Below are positions 1 through 16,911 of a DNA stretch of 16,911 nt, one piece after another. Both the position numbers and the translations under genes were made by a program. The DNA comes from Desulfovibrio sp. (lineage in GTDB: Bacteria > Desulfobacterota > Desulfovibrionia > Desulfovibrionales > Desulfovibrionaceae). Location: positions 1 to 16,911 of the forward strand of contig JAIWOE010000069.1 in the NCBI GenBank assembly GCA_020217165.1, given 5' to 3'. The notes beneath the pieces were generated by a model, which ran no database searches, was not told where the DNA came from, and saw only the letters and a program-made list of their open reading frames with translations. Positions within the stretch are counted from its first letter, which is position 1; every line of letters begins with the position of its first letter.

Positions 1-1666
1 CTTCCTGCACCGGCCAGGGCTGGCCGACTGGCGGCTGGACAACGGTTCCTCCCTGTTTGCCGCGGCGCCCCCCCTGCTGTTTTACCGGGACTGGACGCCC
101 CCCGAAGACGCTCCCTCCCGGGAGCTGCTGGCCCGTTCGGCCACGGTGGTGGCGGGCTGCGGACTGGGGTATGGCATCAATCATTTGCTGCAACGCCTGC
201 CGCCGGCCCATCGCCTCCTGGTGGTGGAGCCCCGGCCGGCCATGCTCCTGGCTGCCCTGGCCTCCACGGACTACTCACCCTTCCTGCAGCGCGGCAAGCT
301 CCTCTTCCTGCCGCCGGTGCGGGATGTGGTGGAGCGGGCCCTGCAGCACCTGGACGTGCAATTCCTGTTTGGCCGCATCGACCTCAAGGGCGATACTCCC
401 TGCAGGCAGCTTGGCCCGGAATACGCCCAGCTGCTGATCATGCTGCGCGAATTGCTGGAAGGCATTGCCGTGGAGCTGACCACCATGCGCCGTCGCCAGG
501 ACGTGATGGTGGGCAATGAACTCGGCAACTTCCAGGCTGCCATGGCGCATGGCTCCATCCGGGGGCTGGCCGGCTCGGCCCGGGGCGTACATGCCGCCAT
601 CCTGGGCGCCGGACCATCCCTGGAGCAGGCTGCCTCCATGCTGGCCGGGCAGGCTGCCGACGGGCAGGACATCCTCCTGGTCACCGCCCTGCAAACCCTG
701 CCGGCCCTGCAGCGGTTGGGCATCACCCCGCATCTGTGCCTGGCCATTGACTATTCCGAGGGCATGCGCGCCGTGTACGAGCGTCTGGATGCGGAGTACG
801 CCCGCTCCATCCCGCTGTTGTATTCCACCAAATTGCTGCCGGACGTGGTGGCCGCATACCCTGGCCCCAAACTGCCGGTCTGGACCCGCGGTGGCCTTGG
901 CACCTACATTTTTTCCGACAGGGAATATGTCCTGCACGCCGGTGGTAACGTCAGCGTGGCCTTGTTCCGGCTGCTGGCCTGGCTGGGCGTCAAGGCGGTG
1001 ACGCTGGCCGGGCAGGATTTTGCCTGGAAGGCAGACCAGTCCCACGCCGCGGGGCACCACGCCAACTGCGCAACGGCCCCCAACCAGGTGGCCCTGCAGA
1101 ATGCCGCCGGGGAGACCATCTGGTCCACCCTCTCATACACCACGGCCCTGCGGGACCTGGCGGCGGATATCGCCTCCAGTGATATTCCCGTTACCAATCT
1201 GTATGGCGGCGGCGCCATCATCCCGGGCACGCGCCAGGTGGACGCAACACAGGCACACACCCTGCTGCCCTCGGACCCCGGCAGTGTGGGGCGCTTCCTG
1301 GCTGCCCTGGAACAGGCCCGCCAGCCCCAGCCGCGACCCGTGTATCAGGCGCGGTCGGACCGCTGGGCATCCTCCCTGCGCGCCGTGCTCAAACATCTGG
1401 AAAAGTGTTTCAAAAAGGTGGAGAAGGAACAGCAGGCCATCGGGGAGGCCGTGGGCAACCTGTATGCCTTCCTGCGGCAGGACCCCCTGTACTTGCCATA
1501 TTTATACAATGAAATCATGGACGTGAACGGCATGCTGCACCTGGGTCGGCCCTTCCTCCCCCGGGACCTGCCAGCCCTGCGGCAGATTTGCAGCCGAGTC
1601 AACACCAAGGTACGGGAGGTGGATCGCACCATCTGCGGCTGCGGCAGGGCACGGCACGCGGCCTGA
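1..1666 (+). CDS. Maf/DUF115 motility-associated factor, likely flagellin glycosyltransferase (5' partial)
   Basis: The reading frame is open from the first full codon at position 2, so the true start lies upstream; 554 residues are visible. A nucleotide-binding-like motif VVAGCGLGYG (from about 143) is followed by VVEPRP, as in the first half of Maf proteins. The DUF115/MptE-like core follows, with AILGAGPSLE (about 595) and HAGGNVSVALFRLLAWLG plus AGQDFAW (about 940-1028). Maf proteins attach nonulosonic acids (pseudaminic or legionaminic type) to flagellin in the cytoplasm before export; that role is known for the family and inferred here. The C-terminus (IEKEQQ-like coiled region, then a Cys-containing tail ICGCGRARHAA) is less conserved. 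No flagellar gene is visible beside it, so the substrate is open. The family call is firm; the substrate is not. Confidence 0.85.
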   Translation, partial: FLHRPGLADWRLDNGSSLFAAAPPLLFYRDWTPPEDAPSRELLARSATVVAGCGLGYGINHLLQRLPPAHRLLVVEPRPAMLLAALASTDYSPFLQRGKLLFLPPVRDVVERALQHLDVQFLFGRIDLKGDTPCRQLGPEYAQLLIMLRELLEGIAVELTTMRRRQDVMVGNELGNFQAAMAHGSIRGLAGSARGVHAAILGAGPSLEQAASMLAGQAADGQDILLVTALQTLPALQRLGITPHLCLAIDYSEGMRAVYERLDAEYARSIPLLYSTKLLPDVVAAYPGPKLPVWTRGGLGTYIFSDREYVLHAGGNVSVALFRLLAWLGVKAVTLAGQDFAWKADQSHAAGHHANCATAPNQVALQNAAGETIWSTLSYTTALRDLAADIASSDIPVTNLYGGGAIIPGTRQVDATQAHTLLPSDPGSVGRFLAALEQARQPQPRPVYQARSDRWASSLRAVLKHLEKCFKKVEKEQQAIGEAVGNLYAFLRQDPLYLPYLYNEIMDVNGMLHLGRPFLPRDLPALRQICSRVNTKVREVDRTICGCGRARHAA

Positions 1667-9677: not shown

Positions 9678-9707
9678 GTGACTTTTGATGCCCGTCAGGA
9701 CTATTAT
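9678..9707 (+). promoter_or_regulatory. Possible promoter of the sigma-factor/pilin operon
   Basis: GTGACT (9678-9683, 4/6 match to a -35 box) and TATTAT (9702-9707, 5/6 match to a -10 box) are 18 bases apart, preceded by a run of eight A (9669-9676) that could act as an UP element. If used, transcription would start close to the ATG at 9719, giving a nearly leaderless message. I do not see an obvious ECF-type AAC-containing -35 element, so autoregulation by the encoded sigma factor is not shown. Confidence 0.25.
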
Positions 9708-9718
9708 TGATAGCAACC

Positions 9719-10327
9719 ATGGACCAGGACCGCGAACACTCCATTATCCGCCAAGTGCTGGCCGGGGACCGCGAGGCGTTCGCGCTGCTGGTGGAGGCAT
9801 ATCAACAGCAGCTCTTTCACATGGCCTATGTGCTGACCGGCTCGGCGGACCAGGCGGAGGACGTGGTGCAGGACACCTTTGTGTGCATGTACGACAAGCT
9901 CGGCAGCTTTCGCCTGGAGCCAGGAGTACGGCTGGCGCCATGGATGTTCGCCATCTGTCGGCATGCCGCCTTTCGGCTGCGCAAGCGAGGGGGGCGGATG
10001 GTGACCGGCGCCCAGCACCTGGTGGACGATGCCAATCAGGGCCGAGGGATAGAGATAGTCGGTGCCCTGGATCCGGAGGCCGGCAGGACTGTGGATTGTG
10101 AGGATCAAGTGTTCCGCAGCGAGCAGGGCCGTATGCTGGCGCAATACTTGCTGCGCCTGCCGGTGGAGCTGCGGGAGGCGCTGGTGCTGCGCTTTACGGA
10201 GGAGTTATCCTTTCGGGAGCTGGCGGAGGTGCTGGGCATCTCCCAGCAGGCGGCCAAGATGCGCGTGTATCGCGGCCTGACCAGATTGCGGGAAATCATG
10301 CCGGGTCATCTTCGGGATGGGGCATGA
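9719..10327 (+). CDS. ECF-type RNA polymerase sigma factor
   Basis: A group 4 sigma factor of 202 residues. Region 2 (about 20-90) shows the typical core: LVEAYQQQLFHMAYVLTG, then ADQAEDVVQDTFVCMY and WMFAICRHAAFRLRKR. Region 4 (about 143-195) has LPVELREALVLRF, the helix-turn-helix FRELAEVLGISQQAAKMRVY, and RGLTRLRE. Regions 1 and 3 are missing, as expected for the family. Start choice: ATG 9719 has no ribosome binding site, while an in-frame TTG at 9707 has AGGA six bases upstream and would add four residues. The next gene begins inside its 3' end, and the operon continues into four pilin genes, which suggests that it controls their expression. It diverges from the ABC permease gene. Confidence 0.93.
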   Translation: MDQDREHSIIRQVLAGDREAFALLVEAYQQQLFHMAYVLTGSADQAEDVVQDTFVCMYDKLGSFRLEPGVRLAPWMFAICRHAAFRLRKRGGRMVTGAQHLVDDANQGRGIEIVGALDPEAGRTVDCEDQVFRSEQGRMLAQYLLRLPVELREALVLRFTEELSFRELAEVLGISQQAAKMRVYRGLTRLREIMPGHLRDGA

Positions 10328-11033
10328 AGACCCGCGGCGCGCACGTATTGAGCAACTTTTGATGACATTTGGGGTGGTTATGACATCAGATACCAGGCGT
10401 GCTCCCGGCGTTTCCGCCCTCGAAGGCGTGCTGGCGGATGACGCACGGTGGGAGCTGGGGGAATTGGGCGAGCTGGCGGCCATGTTACACGGGGCCGAGC
10501 GCGCCACACCGCGACCGGGCCTCGTCAGCCGGGTGATGTCCGCGGTTCCGTTGCGGCGGCCGGGCCTGCAGGGCAGGCTGCAGGACTGGTACCAGCGGCA
10601 GTTTGGCGTGTCGGCCTGGTTGCCGGGGCGCATCATCGCCACCGCGGCCGGGAGGTGCCATCTGTTCTTCTATTTTGTGGGCCTGCTGCACCTGGGGATG
10701 GCAGCCGTGCTGGCGGTGGAACTGCAGGGTTATGCGCACCTCTTTCCCAGCTGGATCAGCCGCCAGCCAGCGTTATCCTGCGCCATGGCCCTCTTGCTGC
10801 TGTGCCTGGGGGTGCTGCTGAGCCGGCGCACGCGGTACAGCAAAGTCCTGGCCAGGTTGGGCCTTGGGGTCTATTTTATTGCGGTGCTGGGCAACAGCCT
10901 GGGCATTGCCACCACCTTCGCGGCGCATGGGGCGGTGTGGGCCGCCGTGTCCCTGGCGGGCTGCGGCATTATCCTGGGGTCATTTTTGGGAACCATGCTG
11001 TTTACCTGTGCAGGAGATGGCCGTCATGTATAA
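10317..11033 (+). CDS. Four-helix membrane protein, candidate anti-sigma factor
   Basis: A 238-residue protein whose frame overlaps the sigma gene by 11 bases, suggesting translational coupling. The N-terminal third is cytoplasmic and helical (about 30-80) and includes PRPGLVSRVMSAVPLRR, resembling the linker region after the sigma-binding helices of many membrane anti-sigma factors. The zinc-binding HxxxCxxC motif of ZAS anti-sigma factors is absent. Four hydrophobic segments follow (about 114-136, 152-169, 180-199, 206-231) instead of the usual single one. The role as anti-sigma factor is inferred from position and this weak resemblance; the sequence alone would make it an unknown membrane protein. 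The start is uncertain: ATG at 10362 or 10380 in the same frame would also work, and none has a clear ribosome binding site. It overlaps the next gene by eight bases. Confidence 0.6.
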   Translation: MGHEDPRRARIEQLLMTFGVVMTSDTRRAPGVSALEGVLADDARWELGELGELAAMLHGAERATPRPGLVSRVMSAVPLRRPGLQGRLQDWYQRQFGVSAWLPGRIIATAAGRCHLFFYFVGLLHLGMAAVLAVELQGYAHLFPSWISRQPALSCAMALLLLCLGVLLSRRTRYSKVLARLGLGVYFIAVLGNSLGIATTFAAHGAVWAAVSLAGCGIILGSFLGTMLFTCAGDGRHV

Positions 11034-11556
11034 GAGCACACGCACCTCCACCAAATGCACCGGCCATGCCGGCCATGTCCGATTGCAGGCAGGGATCAGC
11101 ATGCTGGAGATAGTTATTGTGCTGGTTCTGGTGGGTATTCTGGCTACGGCTGCAATCCATACTGTCGATACCCAGGAAATAAACTACTACGCCGAGGTCG
11201 ACAACCTGCAAAACGCCCTGCGGTACGCGCAGCTACTAGCCATGGGTGATCAGGAAGTCTGGAATATCAACATCAAAAACTCGGAATACGAACTGCAGCG
11301 TAACTGCGCGACCCAGGATCCAGAAGGTCGCCTGGTGCGCCTTCCGGGGCAGGGTTCTGTTGTCTATGCAATTCCAAACGGTATCAGTATGTTCGGATCG
11401 CAGAATATCGCCTTCAACAGCAGGGGACAGCCCAGCGGCTGCGATGGTGTTGCATTGGCCGGAGACGTTGTGGTGACGGTGGACACCAGCAAATTACCGT
11501 CCGGAACAAAGCTCGGTGACTTCACCATCACCGCTAACACGGGGTTCATCCAATGA
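11026..11556 (+). CDS. Prepilin-like protein, FimT/GspH type minor pilin
   Basis: A 176-residue minor pilin or pseudopilin. After a basic 23-residue leader, the prepilin peptidase site is G23 before ISMLE: Ile24 would become the methylated N-terminus and Glu28 is the conserved Glu at mature position 5. The hydrophobic helix IVIVLVLVGILATAA follows, then a globular domain with NALRYAQLLAM, typical of the FimT/GspH start, and a strand-rich C-terminus. It is the first of four pilin-like genes and sits where GspH sits in GspH-I-J-K sets. ATG 11026 is chosen because AGGAG lies nine bases upstream; it overlaps the preceding stop by eight bases. A and T seem more common at third codon positions here than in the neighbours, judged by eye. 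Ile instead of Phe at mature position 1 is mildly unusual. Confidence 0.82.
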   Translation: MYKSTRTSTKCTGHAGHVRLQAGISMLEIVIVLVLVGILATAAIHTVDTQEINYYAEVDNLQNALRYAQLLAMGDQEVWNINIKNSEYELQRNCATQDPEGRLVRLPGQGSVVYAIPNGISMFGSQNIAFNSRGQPSGCDGVALAGDVVVTVDTSKLPSGTKLGDFTITANTGFIQ

Positions 11557-12095
11557 ACAGCGCACCACGTGATGTTCCTGAAAAAATGTTGGCCCCTCGC
11601 ACGGTAGGCCCGAACGGATTCACCCTCATTGATCTCATTATGGCCCTGGTGGTGCTGGCCATTGCCGGTGGGGCCCTCGTCTCTTTCATGCAGATTGGCA
11701 GCACAGTGGACGTGCCTGTGCAGCGCCTGCGGGCGGACAAGGAATTCGAGGCGGCCATGGAGAACATTCTGGCGGATTACAACAACAATTTCATGCGCAG
11801 CTGGCCGGATGCTCCGCCTGAAGATTTTGATGTGTGCGATGAGAGCATGCCGTTGTATGACCCAAGAAACAATGCCACTGCCGTCGAAGAAGGCGGCGGG
11901 CTGGTCTCTTCCTTGATGTTGTTCCGCAATGAGCTACTGACAAATGCCACAAAATACGGCGATATCACCGTGGAAGACATCACATGTGTGACCATGCGCG
12001 ACACGGATGCACCGTTCATGCAGCAGTTGCGCATTCAGGTGCGGAGCAACAGTGTCGTCAATCCGCAACGGATGATCCTTACCGTCGGCAGATAG
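11553..12095 (+). CDS. Prepilin-like protein, PilV/GspI type minor pilin
   Basis: A 180-residue minor pilin-like protein whose ATG overlaps the previous stop codon (ATGA), so translation is probably coupled. The prepilin motif is NGFTLIDLIMALVVLAIAGG: cleavage after Gly22, Phe23 as mature residue 1. Mature position 5 is Asp27 rather than the near-universal Glu. The helix is followed by a soluble domain with an acidic stretch (APPEDFDVCDESMPLYD), two cysteines (one in CDESMP, one in ITCVTM) and a final strand region. The canonical FTL start and the second place in the series fit the PilV/GspI slot, although the soluble domain is too divergent for a sure assignment. It would sit in the inner membrane before assembly and in the pilus tip afterwards. 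Confidence 0.8.
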   Translation: MNSAPRDVPEKMLAPRTVGPNGFTLIDLIMALVVLAIAGGALVSFMQIGSTVDVPVQRLRADKEFEAAMENILADYNNNFMRSWPDAPPEDFDVCDESMPLYDPRNNATAVEEGGGLVSSLMLFRNELLTNATKYGDITVEDITCVTMRDTDAPFMQQLRIQVRSNSVVNPQRMILTVGR

Positions 12096-12103
12096 GGGGA
12101 GCC

Positions 12104-12643
12104 ATGCAGACCAGAAGCACGCAACACGGGTTCACCCTGGTAGAGATGATCGCCAGCCTTGTCATCCTCGGGGTGGTGGCCATGGTGGGCACCCTGGGCA
12201 TGGCCGAGGTCATGCGGTCCTACGTCATGACGTCGGATCATTCCTCCATGTCCCAGAAAACCCAGGTGGCGCTAGCAAGATTGTACCTGGAACTGCAACA
12301 CCTGGCCGAGGTGACGGCCTCAGGCGATACATCTATCACCTACCGGCCCCGGTTCACCTTCGCCCAGGGCATCTTGGATCCCGCGGTGAATGCCTATAAC
12401 GCCGGCGCCGGCACCCTGACCCTGGACGGCAATGTGCTGCTGGACAATGTGCAGCAATTCGAACTGCGCTACTGCACCAGCAGCGATCTTGACTGCAATC
12501 CCACGGCCAGCTTTGATGATGAACTGACGCAGGTCATCGAAGTCAATGTGGTGGTTGGCGGTGCGGATACCAATGGCACCGGAGACAGGGTTCCCAGGGT
12601 CTTCCAGACCCGCGTGCAACCTGTCATTTTCCACTTCTCCTAG
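12104..12643 (+). CDS. Prepilin-like protein, PilW/GspJ type minor pilin
   Basis: A 179-residue protein with a textbook type IV prepilin N-terminus: an eight-residue leader before Gly9, then FTLVEMIASLVILGVVAM with Glu14 at mature position 5. Downstream, YLELQHLAE and LDNVQQFELRYC resemble the PilW/GspJ pattern (a strand with V-x-x-F-x-x-x-Y), followed by VIEVNVVVGG and a C-terminal strand region after TRVQPVIF. Two cysteines, in RYCTSSDLDC, could form a small disulfide loop. The start at 12104 has AGGGGGA just upstream and lies eight bases after the previous stop. In T2SS and type IV pilus systems, I-J-K or V-W-X subunits form the tip complex that starts fibre assembly; this is the J/W slot. 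Confidence 0.85.
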   Translation: MQTRSTQHGFTLVEMIASLVILGVVAMVGTLGMAEVMRSYVMTSDHSSMSQKTQVALARLYLELQHLAEVTASGDTSITYRPRFTFAQGILDPAVNAYNAGAGTLTLDGNVLLDNVQQFELRYCTSSDLDCNPTASFDDELTQVIEVNVVVGGADTNGTGDRVPRVFQTRVQPVIFHFS

Positions 12644-12667: not shown

Positions 12668-15100
12668 ATGAGCGTGTTCACTTTCTCCCATTGCATGGAT
12701 CACCCGGGTCGGCCCGCGCAGGCGCAGGGCGGCATGCAGGGGTTTTCCTTGGTGTACGGCATTGTGGTGCTCACGGTGGTGGCTGGCCTGGCAGCCGCCA
12801 TGGTGTCTATCACCTCCACCTCGCAGTTCAGCCAACTGCAGGAACATAACATCATGCAGGCCCGGTACATGGCGCAGGCCGGGCTGGCTTATTTGAACAG
12901 CGTCCCCAACCAGCACCGTGGCCTCAAGGACCTGAAGTTCGAAGTGGAAGACGCCGATGGCAACGTCATCGGACAGTACGAATTCATTTCCGTGCAGCGC
13001 CTGACCAACCTCAAGGTCCGGGCCGGCATCCTGGGCACCGCCGCCCCCGGCACTTCCCGCGAAACCAAGTACTACCTGGAAGGGGAAGCCCAGGAGGATT
13101 TCTCGGGCATCGCCAGTTCCGTGCAGGAAGACTTTGAGGACTTCACGGTCATCAATTCCGACGATTCCAAGAAAGGCACCAAGAAGATCGATGGCAAGGA
13201 CGATATCAGCTACGAAAAGCGCGCCAGGCGTGGCAAGGCCGCCCAGTCCGAATATGGCGGCACCGGCACCGAAGGTTCGGACGATGCCGCCAACGGCACC
13301 AACTCCTTTGGCGTGGGCGCCAGCGAGTTCAACAACTTTGGCATTGCCACCTTCACCGGCAGCCGCAAGTTCAAGTACAATACCTGCGTGGAGGGTGAAT
13401 GCGAGTTCAAGCTCGGCATGCGCTTCTTCATGACGGTGTGGTATGAAGTGAACAACGCCGACGGCCTGGTCATCACCCTCTTCAACGGCGACAACAACGA
13501 CAAGTATTCCGTGGGCGGGGATTCCCAGCACGGTGAGATGATTGCCTACGCCGGGGATTCACGCGTGTTGAGTAACACCAGTGGCACCAGCTATACCATC
13601 AACCGGTTCATTGATCCGGAAGCCAACGGCATCATGCCGCCAAAGCTGGGAGTGGAGATAGACAACTACGGCAACCCCAACCGGCGCATATGCCCATCCA
13701 GTACCAAATCCCAGTACTGGTACCGCAAAACCAACCCCGCCAGTGGCACAAGGTACGATTACGGCGGCGGTAATGCTGCCTCGGGGTTGGACCACGTCGC
13801 CTTTGTGGCCTGGGGGCTGGACCTGCCCTGGGGCTGTGCCTGGTATAACCAAAATACCAACAGCGTGCGCACGGCGAGCACCGGCAGCAAAACCGCCACC
13901 GCTGATGGCGCGGCGCGCTATGACGACAACCAGCATTCCCGGGAAAGCTGGTTGTGGAACCCCATGCACTACCACAACCCGGCCTCCAACCGCAGTGGCG
14001 AGGTGACCATGCGCTCCTCCTCGGTGCGCAGGGTGGCCCAGACATTTTACATCGAGGAACCCCTGCGCGTCTCCCAGGCGCACATCTACCTGCGCGCCTT
14101 GCCCAGCACCAACCTGGGCAAGAGCTTGCGGGCGTACATCTACCCCACGGTGGCCTCGGGCTCCGGGCGCGTCCCCACGGGCACCACGGCGTTGGCTTCC
14201 AGCCTGGAAAGTGATGATGCCGTCACCGACAGCACCCTGCCCACGGACGGCACCACCAGCACCAGCACCAATGAATCCATTTATGAAGACGGCAGCATGG
14301 TGTTTGTGGGCTTTCACTTCACCAACACCTGGAGCACGGGTTCCAGCGGCATCCTGGCCCCCGGCTGGTATGCCCTGGTCCTGGAATATGGCACCACCAA
14401 CTCGGACAACAACCTGCGCGTGCAGGTGGACGACACCTCCCCCACGCATCCCGGCAACTTTGCCACATACAATGGCTCCACCTGGTCTGTGGACACATCC
14501 AGGGACATGATCTTCTACGTGCTCTTCGACCCGCCCAACTACCAGCGCACGGGCTCCCTGGACGGCGGCGACTCCAGGGTCTATCAGCGTGCCGTGTTCC
14601 CCGTCGTCAATGGCGAAACCAGCTATGACAACGGCGCGGAGTCCATGGGTAACACCACAGCCTGGGGACTGTTCAAGCAGAACCTGGCCATCCGGGTGGA
14701 GGTGCACCGCGGCATCGGCAACAATCCGGATGCCGTGGTGAGCGACGGCACCCATGGCAACGCCGACAACCTCTATCATCCATACAGGATGCTCGTCTGG
14801 CTGCGACGGTGCGAAACCACAGACAAGGCGGGCAACTGTCCGAAGTACATCAACTCGTATTTTGCGGATACCTCCGGGGACCTGGATACCACCCTCAACC
14901 CCCCGGCCATGGAGCGAACCTTCTACCTGAACCCCACGGACCACAACAAGTTCGAGACCTTCCTGCTGGGCATCACCGAGGCCACGGGCGGCGCCACCCA
15001 GGAGGCCAACTTCAGCAACATCATCATGCAGTTCCGAACGCCGGACGACATCCCCCTCAACAAGCGGGCCTGCAAGGACTGCAACGACTTTGATGACTGA
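12668..15100 (+). CDS. Giant PilX/GspK-like minor pilin carrying an L-type-lectin-like tip domain
   Basis: An 810-residue protein with AGGAG upstream of its ATG, last in the operon. The N-terminus is pilin-like: a 25-residue leader, Gly25, then FSLVYGIVVLTVVAG, with Tyr30 at mature position 5; GspK proteins also lack Glu there. The helix continues to QARYMAQAGLAYLNSV, the PilX/GspK pattern. After a linker (about 80-212), I read a concanavalin A-like lectin jellyroll in two parts: residues about 213-395 (ADGLVITLF, KLGVEIDNYGN, DHVAFVAWG) and about 665-792 (LAIRVEVHRG, LLGITEATGGATQ, FSNIIMQFR). Between them, about 445-620, sits a second beta-sandwich-like unit (AQTFYIEEPLRVSQAHIYLR ... APGWYALVLEYG ... 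TYNGSTW). Cysteines occur in likely pairs (240/245, 715/724, 802/805). The pilin part is firm; the lectin reading comes from motif pattern only. It is probably a fibre-tip adhesin. Confidence 0.8.
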   Translation: MSVFTFSHCMDHPGRPAQAQGGMQGFSLVYGIVVLTVVAGLAAAMVSITSTSQFSQLQEHNIMQARYMAQAGLAYLNSVPNQHRGLKDLKFEVEDADGNVIGQYEFISVQRLTNLKVRAGILGTAAPGTSRETKYYLEGEAQEDFSGIASSVQEDFEDFTVINSDDSKKGTKKIDGKDDISYEKRARRGKAAQSEYGGTGTEGSDDAANGTNSFGVGASEFNNFGIATFTGSRKFKYNTCVEGECEFKLGMRFFMTVWYEVNNADGLVITLFNGDNNDKYSVGGDSQHGEMIAYAGDSRVLSNTSGTSYTINRFIDPEANGIMPPKLGVEIDNYGNPNRRICPSSTKSQYWYRKTNPASGTRYDYGGGNAASGLDHVAFVAWGLDLPWGCAWYNQNTNSVRTASTGSKTATADGAARYDDNQHSRESWLWNPMHYHNPASNRSGEVTMRSSSVRRVAQTFYIEEPLRVSQAHIYLRALPSTNLGKSLRAYIYPTVASGSGRVPTGTTALASSLESDDAVTDSTLPTDGTTSTSTNESIYEDGSMVFVGFHFTNTWSTGSSGILAPGWYALVLEYGTTNSDNNLRVQVDDTSPTHPGNFATYNGSTWSVDTSRDMIFYVLFDPPNYQRTGSLDGGDSRVYQRAVFPVVNGETSYDNGAESMGNTTAWGLFKQNLAIRVEVHRGIGNNPDAVVSDGTHGNADNLYHPYRMLVWLRRCETTDKAGNCPKYINSYFADTSGDLDTTLNPPAMERTFYLNPTDHNKFETFLLGITEATGGATQEANFSNIIMQFRTPDDIPLNKRACKDCNDFDD

Positions 15101-15185: not shown

Positions 15186-15890
15186 TTACTGCGGCCCGGG
15201 CGCCAGGCGCACCAGCCGGAAGCCCACGCCGCAATTCACATACCCGGGCACGGCACCCCGGCGGTTGGAGCAGCGCTCGCCCTTGAGCACGCGCATGGCC
15301 ACAGGTTCTTCCACCACAGGAGGCTGGCCGTCTTTGGTGTAATAGGTGTCCACCCATTCATCGGGGGTGTCGAGCATGCCCAGGAGCACGGGCCGGTTGC
15401 TCCGGGCGGTTTCCTGCTGGCGGCAGGCCGCCTCCCAATGGACCTCCTGTGGCAGGATGAAGGTCTCGGTACCATTGTGCAGCCGGGTCAGGGTGCGGGC
15501 GAAGTCGTCGGCTTCGAACCAGGTGATCCAGGCCACCGGCCGGGTGGCCTCATCTCCCCCGGGACAGGCCTGGTGGGGGTGGCCCGTCACGGCTTCCCAC
15601 TGGCCCTGGGTGGTTTCCTGGGTGGCAATCCAGAACCCGTCCGGGCAGGCCTGGCGGCGTGGCTCGTCGGCGTAATGCTTGTTGAAGAACCACTCTGGCA
15701 AGGCGGCCCGCAGGGCGGCTTCTTCCTGGTCGGTCATGCCCATGTCATAACATCCGCCCTGGATCCATACAAACGTAATGCCGCTCACGGGGTCCACCCA
15801 GGTGGTGGAAGACGAGTTGGACGCATTGCCGCAGGATGCCTGGGCCATGATGCATACAGTGCATATAATGGATAGCAGTTTCATGATCAT
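15186..15890 (-). CDS. Exported compact formylglycine-generating-enzyme-like (SUMF1 domain) protein
   Basis: A 234-residue protein with an N-terminal signal (MKLLSIICTVCIMAQASC): either signal peptidase I cleavage after AQA or a poor lipobox ending QASC. The mature part follows the FGE-sulfatase/SUMF1 fold order: ITFVWIQGGCYDMG, then FWIATQETTQGQWEAVTG, PVAWITWFEADDFA, ILPQEVHWEAACR (usually RLPTEAEWEYAAR), DEWVDTYY, MRVLKGERC and a closing GVGFRLVRL. The usual GLYDMxGNVWEW section is reduced, so the domain is shorter than most. Known family roles include formylglycine formation in sulfatases and, more broadly, ligand-binding or other oxidative roles; catalysis is not shown here and no sulfatase is visible. 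ATG 15890 has AGGAG 12 bases upstream; ATG 15884 is a close alternative. It converges on the pilin operon. Confidence 0.78.
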   Translation of the reverse strand: MIMKLLSIICTVCIMAQASCGNASNSSSTTWVDPVSGITFVWIQGGCYDMGMTDQEEAALRAALPEWFFNKHYADEPRRQACPDGFWIATQETTQGQWEAVTGHPHQACPGGDEATRPVAWITWFEADDFARTLTRLHNGTETFILPQEVHWEAACRQQETARSNRPVLLGMLDTPDEWVDTYYTKDGQPPVVEEPVAMRVLKGERCSNRRGAVPGYVNCGVGFRLVRLAPGPQ

Positions 15891-16054
15891 GATGGGGCGC
15901 CACTCCTGCAAAGATGCATGTCTGCGCTGCGGGGATGCAACACGGATGGCAGGTGGAAATCCCTCGACGCAACACGGCACAAGCTGCCTCAGGAAAACCA
16001 CGCTGCAGGCCTTTGGATGCGGTGGGCACGTGGATTAAAGAAAATTCATGCCTG

Positions 16055-16157: not shown

Positions 16158-16911
16158 ATGTGTTGCGATCATCCCGTGCAGTCCCTCCCTCCCGTCCCCT
16201 CCCGGGGCCGTACCTCCCCTGCCGGCTTGCTGCGAATGGGCATGCCCAGGGCGGGCTGGCTGATGCTGGCGTTATGCGTGTTGCAACTTGTTGTCGCCCA
16301 CGCCGCCAACGCCAGGCTCATTGACCTGGATCCGGATTATTTTGGGGAGCGGGAATTCGGCGTCAGTGAACAGGGGATGTTTGAAGGCGTGATTCTCAAT
16401 GTTTCCCAGCACGTGCTCGCTGGCGTGCAGGTGGACATCACCGCCCTGGACAAGGACGGCGCCCAGCTATGGCGGCGCACCATCGCCTTGCCACCCCTCA
16501 AGCCGACCCAACGCGCCCCGGTGTCGGCATTCGTGGGCCTCGACGCCGGCCAGCCTGCTACCTATGACACCATGTATCGTATGGACGATACAGTCGGAAA
16601 AAACCCCAATGTCACCACTGCAACGGAACGCAGGGAGGTGGGCTTCAGCGTCAAGGGCACCGGGGACTTCCGAACCAGCCCCGTGACCATTTCCTCCGGG
16701 GAAAAAACTTTTACCATTGAATATTTGGGTGATGACGTGGTGGTGGTGCTGCTGCAAAACGCGGCGGGCACCCTGGAGCTGCCCCTGTTTGAACTGCAGG
16801 GGCCGGGCAACGCCACCACCCGGATTGTGCTCGACGCCAAGGATGCGTATGCCTTCCATGTGGATGGCGACGGCGCATGGACCATCCAGCTGCGGGACGA
16901 TCAACGTGCCC
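16158..16911 (+). CDS. Secreted protein of unknown function (3' partial)
   Basis: The frame is open to the window end with no stop; 251 residues are visible. I do not recognise the family. ATG 16158 is chosen because GAGGAG lies seven bases upstream. It gives a long basic N-region before the hydrophobic segment AGWLMLALCVLQLVVAHA (about 32-49) with likely cleavage near AHAANA. In-frame ATGs at 16236 and 16242 would give a standard-length signal peptide but have no ribosome binding site. The exported part is strand-rich: an Ig-like stretch (MFEGVILNVSQHVLAGVQVDITALDKDGAQLWRR in segments, about 73-107), a polar middle with DTMYRMDDTVGKNPN, and further strands (about 171-251). It is cysteine-free after the signal. 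It may be a periplasmic or surface protein linked to the pilus locus, but that is only proximity. Confidence 0.75.
   Translation, partial: MCCDHPVQSLPPVPSRGRTSPAGLLRMGMPRAGWLMLALCVLQLVVAHAANARLIDLDPDYFGEREFGVSEQGMFEGVILNVSQHVLAGVQVDITALDKDGAQLWRRTIALPPLKPTQRAPVSAFVGLDAGQPATYDTMYRMDDTVGKNPNVTTATERREVGFSVKGTGDFRTSPVTISSGEKTFTIEYLGDDVVVVLLQNAAGTLELPLFELQGPGNATTRIVLDAKDAYAFHVDGDGAWTIQLRDDQRA

Follow-up and report, generated by a model that had tools for sequence, protein, structure and literature searches.

A contig of Desulfovibrio sp. (JAIWOE010000069.1, 16,911 nucleotides; this whole stretch is called the window here) carries, at 12668..15100 on the forward strand, a gene for an 810-residue modular minor pilin, P0001, which occupies the PilX/GspK position (K slot) of a pilin gene run and joins a pilin module to a split L-type lectin with a second domain nested in it. 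P0001 is, in our view, probably the cap subunit of a type IV pilus, a minor pilin in the K position, and its metal-dependent legume-type lectin would serve as a glycan-binding tip adhesin; the host is a Megalodesulfovibrio-like sulfate reducer. In favour of this reading are a pilin N-terminus without the glutamate at position +5 (Glu5), an H-I-J-K gene order, an L-type fold in the structure model and invariant site residues. The 810-residue frame, reported in a preliminary description of this DNA, was read directly together with its translation, and AGGAGC lies about 10 bases upstream of its ATG. All stretches quoted in that description (Gly25-FSLVY, ADGLVITLF, KLGVEIDNYGN, DHVAFVAWG, LAIRVEVHRG, LLGITEATGGATQ and FSNIIMQFR) were found in P0001 and fall in conserved columns of a 30-row alignment, the rows of which reach down to 23% identity with P0001. 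Three homologues of 788-798 amino acids are 71, 63 and 50% identical to P0001 and three others 30-31%, the closest named relative being DGI_2668 of Megalodesulfovibrio gigas (71%). Because of these identities and the placement of the motifs in conserved columns, we regard the motifs as more than chance.

The N-terminus is that of a genuine pilin, as had been described: Gly25 is followed by FSLVYGIVVLTVVAGLAAAMV and by a long helix in the model. Residues 1-25 (12668..12742) make up the leader peptide, which prepilin peptidase would remove at the predicted site after Gly25 (Gly at -1 in 30/30 rows); translation might instead begin internally, at Met23, and the M. gigas database entry begins at the equivalent Met. 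The pilin module (residues 26-145; 12743..13102) was modelled as a single helix (26-78) and a small beta head that ends at about residue 142. The residue at +5 is Tyr in P0001 and in 24 of the 30 aligned rows altogether; the other six rows have Trp (4) or Val (2), and Glu does not occur there. The three pilins encoded upstream have Glu, Asp and Glu. P0001 thus shows the class III leader, the Gly at -1, the hydrophobic helix and the missing Glu5 of a K pilin, and its gene is the last of an H-I-J-K run, an order kept in three related genomes (G001, G011 and G282). The NCBIfam GspK model gave no match to P0001 up to an expectation value (E) of 1, so that P0001 falls short of the family cut-off, and matched 2 of the 30 members weakly (P0007, E 5.2e-6, 26.2 bits against a cut-off of 130). 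What places P0001 in the K slot, as proposed earlier and supported here, is therefore its position in the gene run and its lack of Glu5 rather than a family model. Nor did N_methyl (PF07963, which we take to be the same motif as IPR012902) match P0001, and a single member of the 30 matched it (E 0.0091). In the passages of PMC9934059 that deal with such complexes, H, I, J and K are encoded in an operon and a K subunit without Glu5 caps the complex.

The lectin had been placed from residue 200 onwards as one block, and both details need correction. The alignment and the structure model put its beginning near residue 146, and a second domain, inserted at residues ~424-660, divides it into part 1 (residues ~146-423; 13103..13936) and part 2 (residues ~661-795; 14648..15052), which contains the closing loop EATGGATQ (771-778). 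The landmarks of part 1 are ADG (264-266), GGD (283-285), E-x-D-x-Y-x-N (330-336), D364, H376 and DDNQH (419-423). For most of the domain's length, the modelled jellyroll matches that of L-type lectins with solved structures, and this predicted fold, together with the invariant metal- and sugar-site residues, supports the L-type-lectin-like reading given in the preliminary description. In addition, the family profile aligns D265-G266 with the Asp-Gly of PDB 7elv, a 'legume lectin'. As in a modular type IV pilin, the model joins a pilin module to a domain that is not specific to pilus biology. A LamG/pentraxin-type reading of P0001 was rejected, since the matches of that type come from an additional domain that members in other genera carry. 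The PDB matches of the full 30-row profile, clostridial neurotoxin chains among them, fall at profile positions 487-638, and in the alignments displayed they match the LamG domain at the C-terminus of other members, a domain that P0001 lacks; the NCBIfam TafC match in two relatives spans only this C-terminal LamG part. Searches of PHROGs and Rfam (gathering threshold) gave nothing informative, and a related-locus pattern search of the genome contigs returned six pattern matches, none of which was confirmed. A PilY1 family search gave no match, which is no proof of absence, as its 14 controls were equally silent.

The metal site of legume lectins follows the pattern E-x-D-x-[YFW]-x-N ... D ... 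H, and P0001 contains it at the level of the sequence pattern. E330-x-D332-x-Y334-x-N336 (13655..13675) is the predicted metal and sugar site, and the ADG loop contains D265-G266 (13460..13465; 30/30 rows), the Asp of which is predicted to contact the sugar. Eight residues (D265, G266, G283, G284, E330, D332, N336 and D364) are identical in 30/30 rows and H376 in 29/30, position 334 being Tyr in 21 rows and Trp in 9; equivalents of E330 and D332 are kept in all 73 listed lectin-core open reading frames (ORFs). The passages on the YwfG site in PMC9815576 name Asp152, the Tyr154 O, Asn156, Asp166 and water as Ca2+ ligands, and Asn156, Asp117, Gly136 (via water), Tyr154 (stacking) and the main chain of 250-252 as mannose contacts. 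The counterparts in P0001 are D332, Y334 and N336, spaced as in YwfG, with D364, D265, G283/G284 and the loop EATGGATQ. The Asp, Gly and Asn of a monosaccharide site are therefore present in 30/30 rows as D265, G283/G284 and N336, judged by sequence pattern and profile alignment.

Several observations weigh against a legume-type lectin on a type IV pilus. The comparison with Pfam suggested earlier left P0001 without any match up to E 1, and phmmer found no PDB sequence match up to E 10. PF18483 (Lectin_L-type_dom) likewise did not match P0001, which stays below its curated cut-off, and four relatives scored 12.7-25.5 bits against the 78.3 required. In the suggested structure comparison, legume lectins appeared in Foldseek only at E 1.4e-2 or worse, and the first 29 rows, led by a phage baseplate protein and birnavirus VP2, had template-modelling (TM) scores of 0.06-0.23. 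Because this ranking gives legume lectins no better than E 1.4e-2, the claim to the fold is based on the VIA re-alignment and the motifs. The same TM-scores, with root-mean-square deviations of ~20 Å or more, led us to reject VP2 and the baseplate protein as whole-protein homologues. The model is also weak around D364 and H376 (residues 341-400, block predicted local distance difference test (pLDDT) 52-76). The correspondence with YwfG comes from pattern and profile alignment, not from a residue-level structure alignment or a metal geometry modelled from coordinates, and the fourth Ca2+ ligand of YwfG lies in gapped columns and was left unscored in the comparison of two natural forms given below. 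Finally, both G001 and G011 have a second secretin match; in each of them, one of the two resembles the secretin of the window's genome (76 and 45%, respectively).

That second secretin would suit an alternative in which the four pilins form a type II secretion pseudopilus and the lectin is a secretion-related tip and no adhesin; the NCBIfam models that match here are also type II secretion ones, GspH for gene H (E 3.1e-7) and GspK for 2/30 relatives of K. We judge this alternative very improbable. The window's genome, which is 87% complete and hence not conclusive on this point, has five full T2SSE ATPases with MshEN domains and a single PilM_2-PilO-secretin contig that holds its sole secretin match. 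G282, a genome in one contig (99% complete) with the same gene order, also has a single secretin match, a relative 46% identical to that of the window's genome. Because the lone secretin sits with PilM_2 and PilO and G282 likewise has one, the gene content points, tentatively, to a type IV pilus more than to type II secretion.

The nested module (13937..14647; its boundaries are estimates, ±15 residues) was modelled as a beta-sandwich. When this domain was modelled by itself, it was most like domains of the phage phi812 baseplate and of Cwp84, of which residues 335-497, the range aligned, are presumably a lectin-like domain, going by the title of 4ci7. The model is modest (pLDDT 63, predicted TM score 0.67, six sequences), and the assignment as a lectin-like beta-sandwich is for this reason probable, not firm. 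In the relative P0006, the insert resembled an F5/8C (discoidin) domain by eye; Pfam lent no support (only Kre9_KNH, E 0.017), and the idea was not used. Another relative, P0009, bears other domains (PF01011 and others). A module of this kind raises the alternative that binding, to a surface polymer or protein, is really the task of the module, and that the lectin fold provides a protein contact or a rigid scaffold presenting it, its L-type site being secondary.

Evidence on this came from the distribution of the family. The lectin core was found in 60/348 genomes of the class and 19/59 genera (E 1e-6 or better); we use this count rather than 74/348, since the search behind the latter also takes in pilin-only matches. 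The 73 listed core ORFs represent 72 distinct ones, L096 3222-3971 being, by coordinates, a cut copy of the L118 gene. A pilin-like N-terminus was recognized in 71 of the 72 (Gly at -1 in 65, Ala in 6), the remaining one, L045, starting at a contig end; the sites were assigned with a simple hydrophobicity script and by eye, and in a few rows the Gly is off by one or more residues. Two forms could be distinguished, 55 members without Glu5 (none has Glu at +5) and 16 with it. The sugar-site Asp and Asn are each present in 55/55 of the former, and in 6/16 and 3/16, respectively, of the latter, in which the metal-site Glu, Asp and His are each kept in 16/16; the motifs, when read directly, show the same. 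Judged by genome handle, no genome has both the Glu5 form (11 genomes) and the Glu5-less form. Owing to shared ancestry these counts are not independent events, but such a pattern would be expected from selection on the cap form for sugar binding.

The two forms bear on the scaffold alternative, because, without sugar binding, it would be hard to explain why the sugar Asp and Asn are invariant in all 55 Glu5-less members, whether or not these have inserts, and are lost from most Glu5 members; we regard this alternative as unlikely. They bear also on the idea that P0001 carries a lectin remnant without binding activity, conserved at the metal site for fold stability only. The sister form, with its metal-site residues kept and its sugar Asp and Asn mostly gone, indicates that forms without a canonical sugar site exist; P0001 itself belongs to the form in which the sugar residues are invariant, and we give the remnant idea very little weight, a shade less than the secretion alternative. 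The Glu5 form comprises L122-L132 and occurs in up to three copies per locus (L125).

Outside the class, the core was found in 7 genomes (12/395 phylum-drawn genomes in all), on a pilin in 5/7 and on a putative signal-peptide protein in 2/7 (G495 and G589), so that the lectin is not exclusive to pilins; the two signal peptides were judged ordinary on inspection, the script giving G589 a weak pilin site. Two of the lectin pilins outside the class, L135 and L136 (G542 and G642), have added YAVGSQVKPGTNNGYYYTVQTAGTSGGTQPGWP-type repeats near a DDNRH motif, for which there was no Pfam match. In L009, L015 and L049, pilin-type N-termini are followed, by eye, by apparent repeat-rich beta-helical domains in place of the lectin.

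Upstream of the P0001 gene, a same-strand run begins with a gene for a sigma factor of the extracytoplasmic function (ECF) type (9707..10327; Sigma70_r2 E 4.8e-14, Sigma70_r4_2 E 1.6e-11; also by synteny), followed by one for a protein with four hydrophobic segments (10317..11033; no Pfam match better than E 0.4), from its position a candidate anti-sigma factor. Next come the minor pilins: H-like (11017..11556; GISMLE, start codon inferred; its GspH match is below the cut-off), I-position (11553..12095; GFTLID; N_methyl at only E 0.0054, below the cut-off) and J-like (12104..12643; GFTLVE, Glu5 present; N_methyl E 8.7e-8). All are on the forward strand. The sigma and membrane-protein genes each overlap the next gene downstream, H and I overlap by four bases, and the I-J and J-K gaps are 8 and 24 bases. 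With tblastn, the order sigma factor, membrane protein, H, (I), J and lectin pilin recurred in G001 (same genus) and in G011 and G282 (same family), I being detected in G001 only and not in G011 or G282. Convergent with the lectin pilin gene is one for an FGE-sulfatase/SUMF1-like protein (15186-16001, reverse strand; PF03781, E 2.2e-9), which adjoins the lectin pilin gene in G001, G011 and G282 also. An FxLYD-domain protein gene (16158-16910, forward; NCBIfam NF038353, E 4e-6), cut by the window end, is a neighbour in G001 too, and an MptE-like protein is encoded at 146-1666 (forward; PF01973, E 1.1e-24), with relatives that lie within several kilobases of the pilin genes in G011 and G282.

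With P0001 as a pilus cap, H, I, J and K would assemble into a complex at the tip from which the fibre starts, and K would remain at the fibre end with its lectin outermost and facing outward. The lectin, with the probable second lectin-like beta-sandwich in one of its loops, would bind sugar at the Asp-Gly-Asn site around Ca2+, and extension and retraction could pull the cell along or toward the glycan, whether its own or a foreign polysaccharide. Judging from position, the ECF sigma factor and the membrane protein probably switch the pilin genes on. Sulfate reducers live in biofilms, among other microbes, and we know of nothing on what their pili hold on to; a microbial polysaccharide of sediments or biofilm is our guess for the ligand. 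If the reading is right, the fibre tip is predicted to be able to grip specific sugars. With a lectin on the cap subunit, the question of what these pili bind becomes a direct and testable one, and natural forms with and without the sugar residues provide an existing control for whether the lectin binds. More speculatively, the Desulfovibrio group and its relatives might possess a dedicated family of pilus-cap lectins whose loop accepts whole binding modules, and which in this lineage has its own ECF sigma/anti-sigma pair; the tip might then be an exchangeable, contact-regulated sugar sensor and the Glu5 sister form a subunit that does not bind sugar canonically.

Among known systems, PilC of Streptococcus sanguinis, for which glycan binding was shown, is likewise a pilin with a grafted lectin of the ConA superfamily that is encoded beside minor pilins and proposed to lie at the tip (PMC9934059). 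In the passages of that report concerning it, PilC retains Glu5 and is not presented as a K subunit, and its lectin, preceded by an Ig-like module, was superposed on galectin-7 (PMC9934059), whereas P0001 lacks Glu5 and has a legume/YwfG-type lectin with a conserved metal site and a module nested within. YwfG of Lactococcus lactis, a relative of SraP, differs from P0001 in being a wall-anchored, non-pilin protein with mucus-binding repeats, and the passages on it name no domain nested in its lectin (PMC9815576). A functional module grafted on a pilin is also what unites P0001 with the modular pilins, surveyed as more than 1,200 proteins in 264 architectures, PF13385 lectin-like modules included (PMC8179133). 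The survey demanded the N-terminal motif IPR012902, and the carbohydrate modules named in its relevant passages do not include PF18483 (PMC8179133). Because P0001 has no PF07963 match and 1/30 members has one, the family was probably missed there, as it would probably be by other motif-based surveys, its carrier lacking Glu5. MshQ of the mannose-sensitive haemagglutinin (MSHA) pilus resembles P0001 in belonging to a type IV pilus system and being a putative adhesin, according to the part of the report that treats it (PMC7096442). Among the papers listed in searches of the open literature, no title or abstract start describes this family, type IV pilins that carry L-type (legume-type) lectins or modules nested in lectins of this kind, which is weak evidence of absence because paywalled literature was mostly outside the scope. 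Thermus ComZ, in the passages describing it, is a GspK-like pilin without Glu5 (Gly at 5) that is enlarged by a binding domain and argued to sit at the tip, as proposed here for P0001; its domain, however, is a DNA-binding beta-solenoid inserted within the pilin fold, whereas the lectin of P0001 follows the pilin module (PMC6561018). Modular pilins with lectin modules were thus known already, as was a Glu5-less, GspK-like pilin with a binding domain and a proposed place at the tip; what P0001 adds to the literature found is that the predicted lectin on the pilin is of the legume type and has a module nested in it.
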